A stretch of DNA of 64,000 nucleotides from an uncultured Clostridia bacterium (GTDB taxonomy: Bacteria > Bacillota > Clostridia > Lachnospirales > CAG-274), in contig CALWLD010000003.1 of assembly GCA_944381435.1 (NCBI GenBank), positions 62,001 to 126,000 of the forward strand, in the 5' to 3' direction. Both the position numbers and the translations under genes were made by a program. The notes below the pieces were generated by a model that saw nothing but the letters and a program-made list of their open reading frames with translations, made no database searches and was not told the origin of the DNA. Below, piece by piece: positions 54,099 through 64,000 of the stretch. Position 1 is the stretch's first letter, and each line of letters opens with the position of its first letter.

Positions 54099-54426
54099 TT
54101 TCTTGATTGTGGTTTCATATTGTTAGGTTTTCTATTATAAACTGTATTTTACTATGTAAATAATCTTGAACAAGTCTTAAAGCTTCACCAAAATGTTGAA
54201 AATGCACAACTTCTCTTTCCCTTAAAAATTTAATAGGTGTTATTACATCTAGGTCGTCTGTCATATTTAATATATATTCATATGTTGATTTTACTTTTTG
54301 CTCTACTGCTAAGATTTCATATGTTACCTGTTGATTGTAATCAACCTACTGAAAAAATGATATGCCTCCTGCATTTACAGAATATATGCCTAAGCCGTGG
54401 TCACCTTATGTCAATATAAGACTTAA
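54099..54426 (-). pseudogene. degenerate cotJC-like remnant, copy 1
   Basis: This segment closely matches 57397-57736 along its length but has substitutions, a deletion and stop codons. Read in minus-strand pieces it still shows KFLREREVVHFQHFGEALRLVQDYL, here split by changes, which is the C-terminal di-manganese helix of the spore coat protein CotJC (manganese catalase family). Like copy 2 it lacks the N-terminal half. No promoter or ribosome binding site is seen. The 229 bases to the next gene are AT-rich with nothing recognisable. Confidence 0.8.
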
Positions 54427-57391: not shown

Positions 57392-57736
57392 TTACATTCT
57401 TGGCTGTGGTTTCATATTGTTAGGCTTTTCAATTATAAATTGTCTTTTACTATCTAAATAATCTTGAACAAGTCTTAAAGCTTCACCAAAGCGTTGAAAA
57501 TGCACAACTTCTCTTTCCCTTAAAAATTTAATAGGTGTTATTACATCTGGGGCGTCTGTCATATTTAATATATATTCATATGTTGCTTTTGCTTTTTGCT
57601 CTGCCGCTAAGTTTTCGTATAAATCGGCAACAGGGTTACCTGTAGATTGAAGTCCATCTGCAGAAAATGGTACACCACCAGCATTTGCAGAATAGATTCC
57701 TAAGCCGTGGTCGGCTTCTGTCAATATAAGACTTAA
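57392..57736 (-). pseudogene. truncated cotJC-like gene, copy 2
   Basis: An open 110-residue frame (57724-57392, TTG start, no ribosome binding site) encodes only the C-terminal half of a CotJC-like manganese catalase family protein: DLYENLAAEQKAKATYEYIL and KFLREREVVHFQRFGEALRLVQDYL. Intact CotJC is about 190 residues, so the N-terminal half, with its share of the metal ligands, is missing. It is a near copy of the remnant at 54099-54426, and both lose similarity at the same upstream point, so the fragment was duplicated after truncation. Confidence 0.75.
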
Positions 57737-57845: not shown

Positions 57846-58862
57846 TTAGTATTTATTATTAATTGGCTTTATATTAAGCTTAAAAATAAAATATATCAAA
57901 CTTAATAAAAATATATTTATAATAATTAAAGATATAATTGTATATAAGTTTTTATCTATATTTATAAATATTAATGATTTATCTATCTGAATATAATTTT
58001 TAAAATTGATATAAAATCTTGTAAATAAATTTTTATAAAAATCAAAATCTGACCATTTATTTGGAATAAAGTTTATAGGTATTTTTAAATTTATATTTAA
58101 TACAAGATAAAATAATATAATCATAATTATTGCTAAAATTTGATAAATAGTATTTTTTATATTAAATTTATTTTTAAAATTAAGAACTTTAAAAAATATT
58201 ACAGTAGTTAATATTAGCATTAAAATTTTAGGTAATTGTAATAAGAAATATAAAGTATTAACTTTGCTATTAATATTATTTATATATATATTCTCACTAT
58301 TATTAAGTCTAATAAAGCTACTCATATTCATAACAATATTATTTGATTTATCAAAAAATACTTTTATATTATTAAACTTATCTTCTTTATCATTTCTTAC
58401 TATTATAGTTGATATTTCATCTTTAAATACACCACAAACAATATACTCTATATCGTTTATAAAAATTTTATTACCTATTACATTATTATTTTTGAAAAGA
58501 CTATAAGCTAAAGAATTGCTAATATAAGCTCCATTTTCTTCAAAATATGATTTATAAAGTATATCTTCTTTAGGGAATATTTTTTGGGGGTTTCCAAAAA
58601 TTTTTAATAATTTAGCTTCTTTAGACCTATTATAATCTTTTTCTAAAACATCTACAAAACCATCTGCACTTAATCCTATAATATCTGTTACGTTTTCATT
58701 TTGCTCTAAATAACTTTTAAGCAATTGTTCATTAGGATTATCATCTAAAAAAGATATATCTAAAATATTATCAAATTGTTTAATTTTTTCAAATTTATAA
58801 TTAGCAAAAAAATAAAAGAAAAGAATTGTTATAACTAAAGGATAATAAATTAATTTTTTCAT
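57846..58862 (-). CDS. membrane protein with MacB core-like extracellular region
   Basis: A 338-residue protein. One transmembrane segment at the N-terminus (about 5-22), an extracellular region to about residue 205, and about three hydrophobic segments after it. The extracellular part carries ISNSLAYSLFKNNNVIGNKIFINDIEY and IVCGVFKD, the pattern of the MacB periplasmic core domain found in FtsX/MacB-type ABC permeases. The FtsX permease domain itself is not clear, so this may be a divergent permease. The start overlaps the HlyD-like gene by four bases, so they are coupled. No ATPase gene is visible. Confidence 0.65.
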   Translation of the reverse strand: MKKLIYYPLVITILFFYFFANYKFEKIKQFDNILDISFLDDNPNEQLLKSYLEQNENVTDIIGLSADGFVDVLEKDYNRSKEAKLLKIFGNPQKIFPKEDILYKSYFEENGAYISNSLAYSLFKNNNVIGNKIFINDIEYIVCGVFKDEISTIIVRNDKEDKFNNIKVFFDKSNNIVMNMSSFIRLNNSENIYINNINSKVNTLYFLLQLPKILMLILTTVIFFKVLNFKNKFNIKNTIYQILAIIMIILFYLVLNINLKIPINFIPNKWSDFDFYKNLFTRFYINFKNYIQIDKSLIFINIDKNLYTIISLIIINIFLLSLIYFIFKLNIKPINNKY

Positions 58863-60691
58863 TTTTCACCTATACGAACATTATCATTTTCATTAATTTC
58901 TTTATTACTATAAATTATTATTTTATCATTTGGTTCAAAAGCACCTTCAATAGCTACTGTTCTATCTCCCTCCTCCAACTTATTTATATCAACTTTTGTA
59001 GCTAAAATTTGTTTTCCAATCATAGTATCTTTTTCTCTAGCTACTAAAACATATTCAGAGTTATTTCCTTTTCTTATAGCATCTTTATTAATAACCGTTT
59101 CATATTGTTTGCTTTCTTTTATAATCTCCATCTTTCCTTCAGAATTAGGCTTTGCATTTTCTAATAAAAATGATATAACTTTACCAGTTTTTCCATCTTC
59201 TCCAACATAATCTAATATTTTATATACAGGTACATCTTTTAGAGTTTCAGTATATAATTCAATTTTAGCTAAATCATCTTTTTCTATATTTTTAGCCTCA
59301 TCTTCAGATAGAAATACTTCAAAAATATAATTAGTATTAATAGGGACTAAAGAAATAACATTTTCAGCTTGTAAATTTTCACCTTCTTTAGCATTTATAC
59401 CTGCTATAATACCCTCATCAGATGCAAGTATACAATAATCATTTTTTATAAGATTTTTTAACTCATTTATATAGTCCTTTTTAGCATTTATATCTAATTT
59501 TAATATTTCTTTATCAATATTTTGTTTTTTAGCATCATTATTAGCTTTAACTTTGTTTTCATTTTCTAAAATTTTGCTATCTTCAATATTTTCATTAGCG
59601 TCTTGAATTTTTATATCATAATCTTGGCCAGATATTTCTTTATTATAGTTAGCATCTTTTAATAAATCTTGTTTATCAATTATGTTTTGTTCTGCTTGTT
59701 TAACAGCATTTTCTGCTTGTTTAATTTTTTCTTCTTCTGCTGATAGCTCTTTTTTGTTTAAATCTTCATTAGATGTGTTTTTAATTTCTTCTAAATCTTC
59801 ATTAGCTTTTTTAATTTGTTCATTAATGTCATTTAAAATTCTTTCATAATCTTTTTTGACAAATTCATATTCTAATTTAGCATTTTTTACAACTTTTTCA
59901 TTTTGTGGTAAATATTGTCCAGTTATCGTATCAAACAAAGAGCTTTCAGCATCTTTAATAGCTTCTTCTGCTTTTTGTAATGCTTTACTTTTTTCATAAG
60001 TTTTATCATCTAAATCTTTTTTTAATTTTTCAATAGCTTCTTCTGCCTCTTTTATTTTATCTTGTTTTAGCTTTTCATTATTTTTTAACAATTCTTTTTT
60101 AGCATCTTCATAGTCTTTTTTAGCATTAAAAAGCTCTAATTGTTTTTCTTTTAAGTCATTTTCTGCTTGGGCTATATCATCTTTTGCACTATTTATTTTA
60201 TCTTCTTCTTTTTGTAATGCAATATCTTTATCTCTTTCTAATTTTTCTAATTGTTTTTTAGCTTCTTCTACTGATTTATCATTAGTATAATTAGTAGTAT
60301 CTAATTCCATTTTAGCAAGCTGAAGTTCTAATTTTTTTAATTCTATTTCTAAAGTTTTTAAATACTCATCTATACTAGCTTTGTCAAATTTTATTAAAGG
60401 ATTTCCATATTTTACTTCTTCACTAATACCATAATATATTTTATCAACTAAAAATTCTCCTTTAAAATTTATGTTAATTTTATCTTCTGCTTTTACTACA
60501 CCATTTCCAGTTATTTTTTTAGAAATAGTACCACCGTTTATATTTTCAACATAAACAATAGGTGTTATTATTGAAGAAAAAGCTTTTGATATAATTGTAA
60601 GAATAATCATAATGATTACAAAATTTATTAATAGTTTTTTAGCTAATTTTTGCTTTTTCTCTTCATTATGTATATTTTCATTTTGTTCCAT
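58859..60691 (-). CDS. HlyD-type membrane fusion / periplasmic adaptor protein with long coiled coil
   Basis: A 610-residue bitopic protein. A transmembrane segment lies at about 22-44. A lipoyl-like half (GVVKAEDKININFKGEFLVDKI) is followed by a very long Lys/Glu-rich coiled coil (about 105-410), the second lipoyl half (CILASDEGIIAGINAKEGENL) and a beta-barrel with a C-terminal membrane-proximal domain. This is the layout of HlyD/EmrA or MacA-like adaptors that bridge exporters in Gram-positive bacteria. AGAAAGGA precedes the ATG. It is 19 bases from the permease gene upstream and overlaps the MacB-like gene downstream. Confidence 0.85.
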   Translation of the reverse strand: MEQNENIHNEEKKQKLAKKLLINFVIIMIILTIISKAFSSIITPIVYVENINGGTISKKITGNGVVKAEDKININFKGEFLVDKIYYGISEEVKYGNPLIKFDKASIDEYLKTLEIELKKLELQLAKMELDTTNYTNDKSVEEAKKQLEKLERDKDIALQKEEDKINSAKDDIAQAENDLKEKQLELFNAKKDYEDAKKELLKNNEKLKQDKIKEAEEAIEKLKKDLDDKTYEKSKALQKAEEAIKDAESSLFDTITGQYLPQNEKVVKNAKLEYEFVKKDYERILNDINEQIKKANEDLEEIKNTSNEDLNKKELSAEEEKIKQAENAVKQAEQNIIDKQDLLKDANYNKEISGQDYDIKIQDANENIEDSKILENENKVKANNDAKKQNIDKEILKLDINAKKDYINELKNLIKNDYCILASDEGIIAGINAKEGENLQAENVISLVPINTNYIFEVFLSEDEAKNIEKDDLAKIELYTETLKDVPVYKILDYVGEDGKTGKVISFLLENAKPNSEGKMEIIKESKQYETVINKDAIRKGNNSEYVLVAREKDTMIGKQILATKVDINKLEEGDRTVAIEGAFEPNDKIIIYSNKEINENDNVRIGEK

Positions 60692-60710
60692 AACTATATC
60701 CTTTCTAAAT

Positions 60711-61550
60711 TTATTCTTTCATACCAGAAGCTCTAATGCCATCTTCTAAATAGCTTTGCCCATATAAAAAGACTAAAAGAGATGGTAAAAGCATTATAAA
60801 GGCAGAAACAGTGGCTATACCTATATTTTCATAAGATATTTTTGATATATATAAAGATAATGGAAAAAGTGAAACATCTTTTAAAAACGCTAAAGGTTGT
60901 TCAATTAAATTCCAATATTCTAAAAAGTTTAAAATTAGTATAGAAATAATACCCGAACGTCCCATAGGTATAGCAATATTAATAAATATTTGAAAATTAT
61001 TAGCACCATCTATTTGGCTTGCCTCTATCATTTCTTTAGGAATATCTTTAAAAAACTGATATAATATAAAAACAGGAAATGTAGAAAAAATAGCTGGTAA
61101 AATTATACTAAATCTAGTATTTAATAAATGTAACTTATCTAATATTAAATAGTTAGATACCATCGACACTTGAAAAGGCATAACCATTAACAGCATATAT
61201 ATAAAAAATATCAAGTTTTTTAGTTTTCCAGTTAAATTAGCAAGTCCCCAAGCCATAGGCACTGCTATTATAATTTGGCCAAGCAATATGGGTATTACTA
61301 ATTTAACTGAATTCCAAAACATAACAAAAAACTCTGGACTATCAAACAAAAGTTCAACTAAAGGCTTTAAGCTTATATATTTTGGAAATAAGCTCCAAGT
61401 AGCATATCCATTATTATTTAACAAAACTGGTCCAAAATTTGCTTTAACTTCGTCAGCTGGCATAAATGTACTTGATAAAATCATAATAAAAGGTATCCAA
61501 ACGAATAAAGATAAAATTATAATAATTAAATTACCTATTTTATTTTTCAT
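60711..61550 (-). CDS. carbohydrate-type ABC transporter permease (MalG family)
   Basis: A 279-residue permease with six hydrophobic segments. The coupling motif EASQIDGANNFQIFINIAIP matches the MalG/UgpE EAA loop (EAAxxDGA). I chose the ATG at 61550 after AGGTG; it starts one base after the preceding permease stop. Its partner is the MalF-like permease upstream. No ATP-binding subunit is encoded in the window, as is common for systems that share an MsmK-type ATPase. Confidence 0.88.
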   Translation of the reverse strand: MKNKIGNLIIIILSLFVWIPFIMILSSTFMPADEVKANFGPVLLNNNGYATWSLFPKYISLKPLVELLFDSPEFFVMFWNSVKLVIPILLGQIIIAVPMAWGLANLTGKLKNLIFFIYMLLMVMPFQVSMVSNYLILDKLHLLNTRFSIILPAIFSTFPVFILYQFFKDIPKEMIEASQIDGANNFQIFINIAIPMGRSGIISILILNFLEYWNLIEQPLAFLKDVSLFPLSLYISKISYENIGIATVSAFIMLLPSLLVFLYGQSYLEDGIRASGMKE

Positions 61551-61551
61551 T

Positions 61552-62433
61552 TTATTCACCTATCCTTTTTTGAAACATTAATATTAAAATGAATATTACA
61601 ATACTTAAAACAGTTGCACCAGCTGAAAGCTTATCTATATCTAAAGAGTTAAACCAATTATTAAAGGTATGTTGTAACATATACATACTATTATGTGGAT
61701 ATTCTCCAGCAACAAGATAAGCCTCTCTAAATACTTTAAAAGAATTTAAAAGAGATAAAACAGAAACAGTAAAAATAGTAGGTATTAAATTGGGTAAAGT
61801 AATAAACATAAAAAGTTGTATTTTGTCAGCTCCATCTACGCTTCCAGCTTCATATAAACTTTTAGAAATATTGCTAAGTCCAGCAAGCCATAATATAATG
61901 TTGTAACCTAGATTACGCCAAATATATGTAAAAACTAAAATCCAAAAGGCAAAATCACTATTTAGCCAATCTATACTATTTATTCCAAATTTATTTAAAA
62001 TACCATTTATAACGCCTTTTTCATTAAACATTACTGACCATAATAAAACAACCGATGCAACAGGTATAGCCATAGGTATTAAAAATGTTGTTTTAAAAAA
62101 CTCTTGTTTTAAAGTTATATTATTTAATAAAATAGCTACAAATAAAGATAAACCTATCAATAAAGGTATACAAATAAATATAAACTTAAAAGTATTAAAA
62201 CTAGCTAATCTAAAAGCTTCATTGTTAAAAATATTAATATAATTTTTTAAAGCTACAAATTCACCACTAACTCCATTAAAAAATGATTTAAAAATCACAT
62301 CTAAAAATGGTATAAATATAAATATTGATGTCCCTAAAAGACTAGGTAATATATATATCAAATAAGGATTTAGTTTTTTATTCTGCAAGATATGTATTGG
62401 CTTTTTGTAAGATTGCTTTTGTTGTTTGTTCAA
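61552..62433 (-). CDS. carbohydrate-type ABC transporter permease (MalF/UgpA family)
   Basis: A permease of about 293 residues with six hydrophobic segments and the EAA-type loop LYEAGSVDGADKIQLFMFITLP. The start is uncertain: a TTG at 62433 lies nine bases after AAAGGTG, while an in-frame GTG at 62445 overlaps that site. Either way it overlaps the 3' end of the binding-protein gene by about 60 bases in another frame, which is a long overlap for this kind of operon. It pairs with the MalG-like permease. Confidence 0.85.
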   Translation of the reverse strand: MNKQQKQSYKKPIHILQNKKLNPYLIYILPSLLGTSIFIFIPFLDVIFKSFFNGVSGEFVALKNYINIFNNEAFRLASFNTFKFIFICIPLLIGLSLFVAILLNNITLKQEFFKTTFLIPMAIPVASVVLLWSVMFNEKGVINGILNKFGINSIDWLNSDFAFWILVFTYIWRNLGYNIILWLAGLSNISKSLYEAGSVDGADKIQLFMFITLPNLIPTIFTVSVLSLLNSFKVFREAYLVAGEYPHNSMYMLQHTFNNWFNSLDIDKLSAGATVLSIVIFILILMFQKRIGE

Positions 62434-64000
62434 TATCTTTTTCACCTTTAAAATATCCCTTCGATTCTTCTATTATAAAATTCATTAATACACTATCTTC
62501 TTTTGTCGGTTTAGATACTTTTTCTATTGTTTCATAAAATTTAACTTTATCTTCATCTGTTGGTCTATTAGTGCTTAAATCAATCATTCTATTTGGGTCT
62601 ACTGATACCATAATAATTAATTTAGTAGCCATATTTTCATCTTTTTCTTCTATCACTTTAAAGCTATCAAAAACTTTTTTATTAACAGTAAATCCACCTT
62701 CTGATAGCAAGAAATCTATTTTTTGTGTTTCTTCATTTAAAGCAGTTTTTATAATATCTTTTGCTATATCTACATTTTCACATTTAGAATTTATCCCTAT
62801 CATATTTAAAGGTGTAAAATATCCATTGTTGACCATATATGTAGCATCTCCATTCATTTTTATACTTGCATAGCTATGGTCAAGCTCTGTTATTGTCGTC
62901 ATATTTTGAAATTGTAATTCTGCATCTTTATAAGCTAAATATTCTAGCCCTGCTATATTTTTATCAAGCTCTGTCTCAATTACTACATCTAATTCTTTAT
63001 CACTAGATAATATTTTGATATTCTCTAAATATTTCTTTAGCTCATTTTCATTTAAACTTCCATCATCATTTAAAATCTGTGTATTTATTTTAAATGTTTC
63101 TTTTATAAGTTCTTCTGGCTTTGTAGGATAAAATACCATTTTTTCTTTATTTTCTTGTTGCCATTTAGCAAGACTGTCAAGCCCTGTATAGTTCTTTAAA
63201 ATTTCATTTGTACCCCATATTGTAGAAGGTGAAAACCTTGTAGGAATAGTATATATTTTGCCATCTTCTATAAAAGGATTAACTATATTTTCTAATATTT
63301 CTCCACTATCTATTAAAGGTGTTATTACATCTGATATATCTAACAAAGCACCTTTTTCTATATAGTTATCTGCATTAAGCCCATCTAATACAATTATATC
63401 TGGTCCTTTGCCTGATAGTATTTCAGTGTTTAGATTTTTAATAGCGTCTTCTTTTGTTATTCCATTGTGTTCATCATATCCTACTTGTATATTTATAGCT
63501 ACATCTGGATTAGATTTTTTATAATTAAATATTGCTTGTTTTATAAAAGGGTTATCTTGTAACATATATACATTCAAGCTAGCTTTAAAATTTTTATTAT
63601 AATTTTCATCATATTGATATTTAATTAATTTATTTCCTTCAGATGAATTAAAAAATAAACCTAAAAACTGTTTTTCATCTATTGATATAATATTGCTCAC
63701 AAAATTTGTAGGAATACCTAATGATGTACTGTTGCCATCAACTACTTTTTCAAATGTAGCTCTATCTTTTAATACTTTTTCAACACCATTTTTGCCGCAA
63801 ATGTAAATATTGTTATTACTATCAACTGATAAAATATCACTATAGTCTAAGTTTGGTTTAGATATATTATTTTTTTCTTCCCCTGTTTCTAAATCATATA
63901 TAACTAAAGATTTTTCTTTTAAATTTAAAGTTATAATTTCATTATTAACCACTGTGTATGTAAATGTTTCATTATTGTAAGATTTTAAAAGATTCCCTTC
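62378..64000 (-). CDS. extracellular solute-binding protein, 5' end outside the window
   Basis: The frame is open to the window edge, so the signal peptide and N-terminus are missing; at least 540 residues are visible. The first 115 or so resemble beta-propeller blades (YDLETGEEKN, DSNNNIYICGKNGVEKVL). A type-1 solute-binding fold follows, with LNVYMLQDNPFIKQAIFNYKKSNP, GKGPDIIVLDGLNADNYIEKG, and YTIPTRFSPSTIWGTNE. That is the architecture of sugar or peptide ABC binding proteins fused to a sensing or scaffold region. It lies just upstream of the two permeases and supplies their ligand specificity; the ligand is unknown. Confidence 0.82.
   Translation of the reverse strand, partial: EGNLLKSYNNETFTYTVVNNEIITLNLKEKSLVIYDLETGEEKNNISKPNLDYSDILSVDSNNNIYICGKNGVEKVLKDRATFEKVVDGNSTSLGIPTNFVSNIISIDEKQFLGLFFNSSEGNKLIKYQYDENYNKNFKASLNVYMLQDNPFIKQAIFNYKKSNPDVAINIQVGYDEHNGITKEDAIKNLNTEILSGKGPDIIVLDGLNADNYIEKGALLDISDVITPLIDSGEILENIVNPFIEDGKIYTIPTRFSPSTIWGTNEILKNYTGLDSLAKWQQENKEKMVFYPTKPEELIKETFKINTQILNDDGSLNENELKKYLENIKILSSDKELDVVIETELDKNIAGLEYLAYKDAELQFQNMTTITELDHSYASIKMNGDATYMVNNGYFTPLNMIGINSKCENVDIAKDIIKTALNEETQKIDFLLSEGGFTVNKKVFDSFKVIEEKDENMATKLIIMVSVDPNRMIDLSTNRPTDEDKVKFYETIEKVSKPTKEDSVLMNFIIEESKGYFKGEKDIEQTTKAILQKANTYLAE

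Follow-up and report, generated by a model that had tools for sequence, protein, structure and literature searches.

The stretch of DNA analysed here (the window; 64,000 nucleotides, G000:C3:62001-126000) lies within the 2.16-Mb genome of an uncultured Clostridia bacterium and contains an operon in which the genes of a sugar-type ABC importer are joined to those of an HlyD-type adaptor and a MacB-like protein. The best explanation, to which we assign a probability of about one half, is a single MsmK-powered CUT1-type importer bearing an export-type adaptor stalk that is held in place by a MacB module devoid of an ATPase. The analysis showed that the genes are conserved, assigned folds to their products, and found the EAA loops intact, the coupling elements lost, a suitable ATPase available and the families co-diverging; on this basis we read the operon as one machine and infer a physical complex, the function of the stalk, the direction of import and the class of ligand.

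Organization of the operon and its products

The following features were identified from the ORF list of the window and from an extended region that was also read (C3:118001-137000, L009; window coordinate = L009 coordinate + 56000).

57846..58862, minus strand: MacB-like protein of 338 aa, with TM1, a MacB-type extracellular domain and three more TM helices
58859..60691, minus strand: HlyD/MacA-type membrane fusion (adaptor) protein of 610 aa, with an N-terminal TM helix, a split lipoyl/barrel region and a coiled coil
60711..61559, minus strand: MalG/UgpE-like permease with an intact EAA loop (EASQIDGAN...IAIP)
61552..62445, minus strand: MalF/UgpA-like permease with an intact EAA loop (YEAGSVDGAD...ITLP)
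62378..>64000, minus strand: solute-binding lipoprotein (SBP), 727 aa in full, the N-terminal part continuing past the window edge to 64561 (G000:C3:126561)
L009 8719-9999, minus strand: histidine kinase, upstream of the binding-protein gene
L009 9989-10651, minus strand: OmpR-type response regulator, upstream of the histidine kinase

Read along the minus strand, the gene order is response regulator, histidine kinase, binding lipoprotein, MalF-like, MalG-like, HlyD-like and MacB-like. The SBP and MalF genes overlap by 68 bp (assuming that MalF starts at the upstream GTG), the MalF and MalG genes by 8 bp, and the HlyD- and MacB-like genes by 4 bp, and the gap between the MalG and HlyD genes is 19 bp; these overlaps and this gap suggest a single transcript from the binding-protein gene onward. 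The kinase gene ends 157 bp from the binding-protein gene. The preliminary description of this DNA was accurate in reporting five overlapping or abutting genes on the same strand; the operon itself reaches past the window edge, and the earlier reader saw the binding protein without its N-terminal part.

Both permeases contain the Pfam domain BPD_transp_1 (4e-14 and 9e-14), and their EAA loops are also conserved in relatives. The MalF family is marked by the signature NSFKVFREAYL-AG-YPH-QH-FNNWF and scores at least ~400 bits with the final profile, other sugar permeases of the same loci reaching at most ~150; the MalF/MalG-like permeases form a distinct subfamily. The binding protein carries a lipobox (VTAC) and SBP_bac_8 (Pfam, 4e-13), and its AF2 model (pLDDT 87.3) comprises an almost all-beta region (residues 46-318) and an SBP fold (residues 327-727). 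This model, together with profile matches to WD40/beta-propeller chains and to the sugar-binding protein CbpC, upholds the earlier proposal of a propeller-fused binding protein. CbpC is the best solved relative (sequence profile, 4e-39), and a fold search with the SBP part returned mostly sugar or oligosaccharide binders, with CbpC first at 1.3e-15.

No ATPase gene was found among the ORFs of the window operon. Because the EAA loops are kept in both permeases, a MalK-type partner is expected. A search of GTDB contigs with a MalF alignment identified 118 relatives, and 80 of the 118 loci, titled Clostridia or other Bacillota, were examined; an ATPase of MalK length lies beside the core genes in 16 of these 80, and the operon ATPases of relatives that were tested are of the MalK type (ABC_tran, OB_MalK and TOBE). 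The genome under study contains a single full-length MalK/MsmK-type match (C2:138426-139529), which shares 67% identity, over 368 residues, with the ATPase encoded in one such operon (L069). Inspection of its neighbourhood revealed no permease or binding-protein genes of the importer kind, so this ATPase is an orphan. In Anaerocellum bescii, one orphan MsmK powers several CUT1 importers (PMC12838199). Other BPD_transp_1 permease pairs are present in this genome, at least one of which (L148) is of the sugar type by similarity, and the orphan probably serves the window operon. Given the MalK-type ATPases in the operons of relatives and the shareable orphan in this genome, the absence of an ATPase gene is ordinary and not, as had been thought, a notable feature. 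The upstream search proposed at the outset did reveal an ABC ATPase (C3:129769-130215), but this ATPase is of the FecE siderophore type and is accompanied by permeases and a binding protein of its own; it was rejected as the missing motor. A complete FecBCDE-type siderophore importer occupies the next upstream module (L009 11481-15346) on the same strand.

The MacB-like protein retains the MacB extracellular fold and has lost the connection to a motor. Its AF2 model, built with 66 sequences (pLDDT 88.9), matches MacB (3ftj, 5e-10), YknZ (5f9q, 3.5e-9), the S. pneumoniae Spr pump and LolCDE in Foldseek, in agreement with the MacB-core-like extracellular domain noted previously, and the closest solved relative by sequence is YknZ (8.6e-5). 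MacB_PCD was detected in the window protein at 4e-4, below the curated cut-off, and in 33 of the 66 family members, none of which has a Pfam match to the FtsX domain (0/66). The NBD-coupling motif is absent from all 70 members inspected (0/70) and likewise from the distant relatives, several of which are predicted to possess two TM helices and no more. In MacB, the segment between TM2 and TM3 contains the major coupling helix, the C-terminus contributes a minor one, and TM1 is preceded by an amphipathic helix (PMC5985334). The TM2-TM3 loop of the window protein consists of 8 residues in the AF2 model (~14 by a hydropathy estimate) and ~5 residues precede TM1, compared with TM2-TM3 loops of 31-45 residues containing an EIGIRKSLGA motif in the canonical MacAB-like permeases of this genome, which served as a control. 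Because the NBD-coupling elements are absent, the protein is unlike a usable exporter permease, and this role was rejected for lack of the FtsX domain and coupling motif and for the short TM2-TM3 loop. Nor was a dedicated MacB/LolD-type ATPase found in the window operon, the core-linked ATPases of relatives being of the MalK type where tested. Selection keeps the extracellular domain, the part that holds the adaptor in MacAB, and a near-invariant P-x-x-WSDF motif (residues 267-273) is located in the TM3-TM4 extracellular loop. Two defining features of a MacAB-type (type VII) exporter are thus missing, and one feature of this type, the adjacency of genes for an HlyD/MacA adaptor and a MacB extracellular domain, is present. 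The features tested for a CUT1 importer were found, i.e. an SBP, two EAA-loop BPD_transp_1 permeases and a MalK-type ATPase with OB/TOBE domains (in the operons of relatives; as an orphan here).

In the adaptor, HlyD_3 was detected at 9e-4, also below the curated cut-off, and the family profile matches solved adaptors (6vej at 3e-22, MexJ, MacA and EmrA), which confirms the earlier HlyD-type assignment. The coil region extends from ~105 to 418 (about 310 residues), and its sole proline (262) and one of its two glycines (258) lie at the midpoint, pointing to one symmetric hairpin with arms of ~153 residues; as straight helices at 1.5 Å per residue, these arms would measure ~23 nm. The barrel of Spr0693 is 56 Å (5.6 nm) (PMC5768738). 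Coil lengths among family members range from 104 to 477 residues with no single length conserved, which would fit a spacer more readily than a fixed docking tip and weighs against a fixed stalk in the one-machine reading. A scan for a TolC partner with PF02321 (OEP/TolC) gave weak coiled-coil matches, one of them an HlyD itself. A 521-aa frame at G000:C8:4910-5713 has two weak OEP/TolC-family matches, which may reflect mere coiled-coil similarity.

Conservation and co-divergence of the gene set

A first survey of 97 genomes detected the MacB-like protein both within the genus and in distantly related families, preceded by MalF-MalG-HlyD where the contig was readable. A six-frame recheck of the 80 loci (of the 118 relatives) identified all five genes in 62 and MalF, MalG, HlyD and MacB without SBP in 7 others; most of the other 11 are cut by contig ends, and L070, L098 and L101 look incomplete, with L098 containing SBP and MalF and lacking the rest. 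Carriers of all five genes include the complete chromosomes of Blautia parvula, Hungatella hathewayi and Anaerocolumna. Three main orders occur in these 80 loci, namely SBP-MalF-MalG-HlyD-MacB (37 loci), SBP-HlyD-MacB-MalF-MalG (14 loci, most with a MalK-length ATPase next) and MalF-MalG-HlyD-MacB-SBP (6 loci), the remainder being mostly partial, and HlyD directly precedes the MacB-like gene in each main order. In the ATPase-containing clade, an extra small lipoprotein is encoded between SBP and HlyD (L041 6188-6814, L028 6452-6985 and L053 6131-6787). It ends in a conserved motif like QADGTYLADRIIMIEF, and the L041 copy, searched with its first 14 residues left off, had no Pfam match.

In a wider search (E <= 1e-60), the MalF family was detected in 44 of 391 genomes at the class level and in 8 of 398 at the phylum level. 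By manual tally, 34 of the 44 class genomes have a MacB-domain match no more than ~5 kb from the MalF match, on the same strand of the contig. The view that the weak MacB-domain matches of class genomes were all ordinary MacB was withdrawn in part, as many coincide with distant MalF-family operons. In a set of 20 loci, mostly from the distant group and including other classes, MalF-MalG-HlyD-MacB occur in this order in nearly all, and several distant-group loci from other classes contain a MalK-type ATPase and an SBP of 460 aa, too short for a propeller, after the core. The propeller therefore looks like a clade-specific addition to a MalF-MalG-HlyD-MacB core. One locus (L171 6171-14437) contains the core twice in tandem, with a second HlyD of 146 aa that is too short for a coil.

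It had been suggested that the adjacency might be fortuitous if the five genes co-occurred only in this genome, or if a complete importer lay upstream and a separate intact exporter existed. The latter condition is partly borne out, by the siderophore importer described above and a separate intact MacAB-like exporter (L146 5722-10279), but the five genes are found together in many genera and are not limited to this genome. Chance adjacency, an assembly artefact or a recent fusion of neighbouring operons, for which the location of the operon in a repeat-rich stretch of cotJC-like fragments might speak, was rejected as vanishingly improbable in view of the conservation of the five genes across 62 related loci, complete chromosomes included. 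Four such fragments are present on the same strand of G000:C3 (window 54100-54402 and 57393-57712; L009 11002-11321 and 15581-15985). Each corresponds to a ~320-bp 3' part of a manganese-catalase gene, is 85-95% identical to the longest copy and has a sharp 5' border near GACCACGGCTTAGG. The fragments bound successive modules (redox genes, the importer/adaptor operon and the siderophore importer) beside a phage-like region, and look like the result of repeated insertion at one site.

The operon might also encode two independent systems on one transcript, i.e. an ordinary importer dependent on MsmK, and an adaptor/MacB-like pair that is unrelated to it apart from shared regulation. Either half resembles a separate known kind and the order of the halves varies among clades; however, the halves stay together in all main orders over very divergent genomes, the MacB half lacks a dedicated ATPase, and co-divergence between the halves is about as strong as within them. 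In a mirror-tree analysis of pairwise protein distances over the 62 loci, with the species tree not removed, r was 0.92 for MalF-HlyD and 0.91 for MalF-MacB, compared with 0.93 for MalF-MalG and 0.945 for HlyD-MacB. The five families co-diverge at r of 0.83-0.95, and a regulator control, perhaps not orthologous everywhere, gave 0.63-0.69. Because of these two properties of the data set, the co-divergence is supportive of one unit and not proof of it. Two independent systems are, in our judgement, very unlikely.

Neighbouring genes and alternative roles in sensing and defence

Two-component genes are the only clearly recurrent class of neighbours, the others being heterogeneous: such a gene lies no more than three ORFs away in 50 of the 80 loci (of the 118 relatives). 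No recurrent catabolic family was found near the core among the 25 commonest families listed (86 neighbours), and a plain nutrient-import role is weakened by this lack of consistent sugar catabolism. It is conceivable that MalFG and the binding protein import or sample a ligand, with the HlyD/MacB-like pair forming a sensory scaffold outside the cell that passes signals on to the neighbouring OmpR-type two-component system, by a logic that may be comparable to the transport-coupled signalling of the BceAB type. The MacB-like protein, devoid of the parts through which an ATPase could drive it, would suit such a passive role, but several loci have no nearby two-component system, and co-divergence with the core is weaker for the regulator than among the core genes themselves, so that the regulatory pair looks exchangeable. 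This sensor-transporter arrangement is considered unlikely.

Alternatively, the substrate may not be a nutrient sugar: the complex may remove or take up wall-targeting compounds or fragments of the wall, which the HlyD/MacB-like tube would carry off the membrane as in YknWXYZ or Spr0693-0695. In their extracellular parts, the HlyD and MacB-type proteins are similar to Gram-positive pumps for antimicrobial peptides. One subclade has VanZ-family genes adjoining the ATPase, Clostridium has undecaprenyl-phosphate translocase-like genes in the vicinity, and in L165, L167 and L169 MalF is preceded by an exporter-type ATPase and by a large membrane protein, along with a GntR regulator for which L165 and L169 were checked. 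However, the VanZ, translocase-like and GntR/ATPase neighbours are confined to subclades, VanZ is common outside resistance loci as well, and the sole coupled ABC module is of the importer type with a sugar-type binding protein; envelope defence is regarded as unlikely. The VanZ-family gene was tested in L041 (12816-13427), where it directly follows the MalK-type ATPase, and genes of the same length occupy L058, L064, L066 and L072 of the same subclade. The GntR regulator, a PmtA-like ATPase and a DUF6449 membrane protein of 724-730 aa were found ahead of MalF in one distant clade (L165 9803-13246 and L169 2540-6001). Together, the two-component genes, the subclade VanZ, the undecaprenyl-phosphate translocase-like gene and the GntR/PmtA-like module make a role in envelope sensing or defence possible. 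PADLOC gave no match.

Proposed mechanism and comparison with known systems

In the preferred reading, i.e. a single importer bearing an adaptor stalk, MalF and MalG would form a CUT1-type importer driven by a shared ATPase of the MalK/MsmK type whose gene lies at another site in the genome. The MacB-like protein would be a former type VII ABC permease whose extracellular domain was kept as a docking platform when the ATPase link was lost, and the HlyD-like protein may oligomerize on this platform as MacA does on MacB, its coiled-coil hairpin forming a stalk or tube across the wall zone above the importer. The propeller-bearing lipoprotein would capture an oligosaccharide-like or wall-derived ligand and hand it over to MalFG, and the adjacent two-component system probably adjusts expression of the operon. 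Of the arrangements considered at the outset, an envelope-spanning or sensor-transporter device is possible and favoured.

CUT1 importers with a shared MsmK/UgpC ATPase, such as Athe_0595-0598 with MsmK of Anaerocellum bescii (PMC12838199), likewise consist of a lipoprotein SBP, two EAA-loop permeases and a MalK-type ATPase, whose gene may lie within the operon or separately. In contrast to these, the window operon adds an HlyD-type adaptor, a MacB-like protein and an SBP propeller, and its family has a distinct permease subfamily and no consistent glycoside hydrolase neighbours. The Gram-positive MacAB-like pumps Spr0693-0694-0695 (PMC5768738) and YknWXYZ share the HlyD/MacA adaptor beside a protein with a MacB extracellular domain, whereas the window system lacks a MacB-type ATPase, the coupling loop and a recognizable FtsX domain (some relatives having two TM helices), is tied to a CUT1 importer, and has an adaptor coil predicted to be far longer than the Spr0693 barrel. 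The extracellular domain fold is common to MacAB-TolC and other type VII ABC mechanotransducers (MacB, LolCDE and BceAB; MacB and LolCDE by fold search), but the window MacB-like protein has neither a coupled ATPase nor a coupling helix. Each part is of a known kind, and the combination is apparently undescribed in the open-access literature. The search of that literature found no described counterpart of the combined operon, in line with the initial impression that no characterized system has this order (in the single paper that seemed promising, MACB was the name of a strain), and its restriction to open-access sources makes this weak evidence of absence.

HlyD/MacA adaptors are understood as parts of exporters, and the reason for their presence in bacteria that lack an outer membrane is still an open question (PMC5985334). 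The operon provides a concrete test system for this question, as about one-tenth of the genomes sampled from the class (44 of 391) encode its permease family, in most cases together with the adaptor and the MacB-like protein, and named gut species are among the carriers. An adaptor and importer operon with no link to an exporter motor would, if the proposal is true, mean that HlyD/MacA adaptors serve uptake or sensing too. We tentatively suggest, as a possibility, that the operon specifies an undescribed class of envelope machine. In it, an adaptor tube of the exporter type would stand on a MacB module without an ATPase and prolong the uptake path of an ABC importer across the wall; components of tripartite exporters would thus have been redirected to import or to sensing coupled to uptake. 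Should the adaptor prove to act in uptake, the system would merit a separate class.
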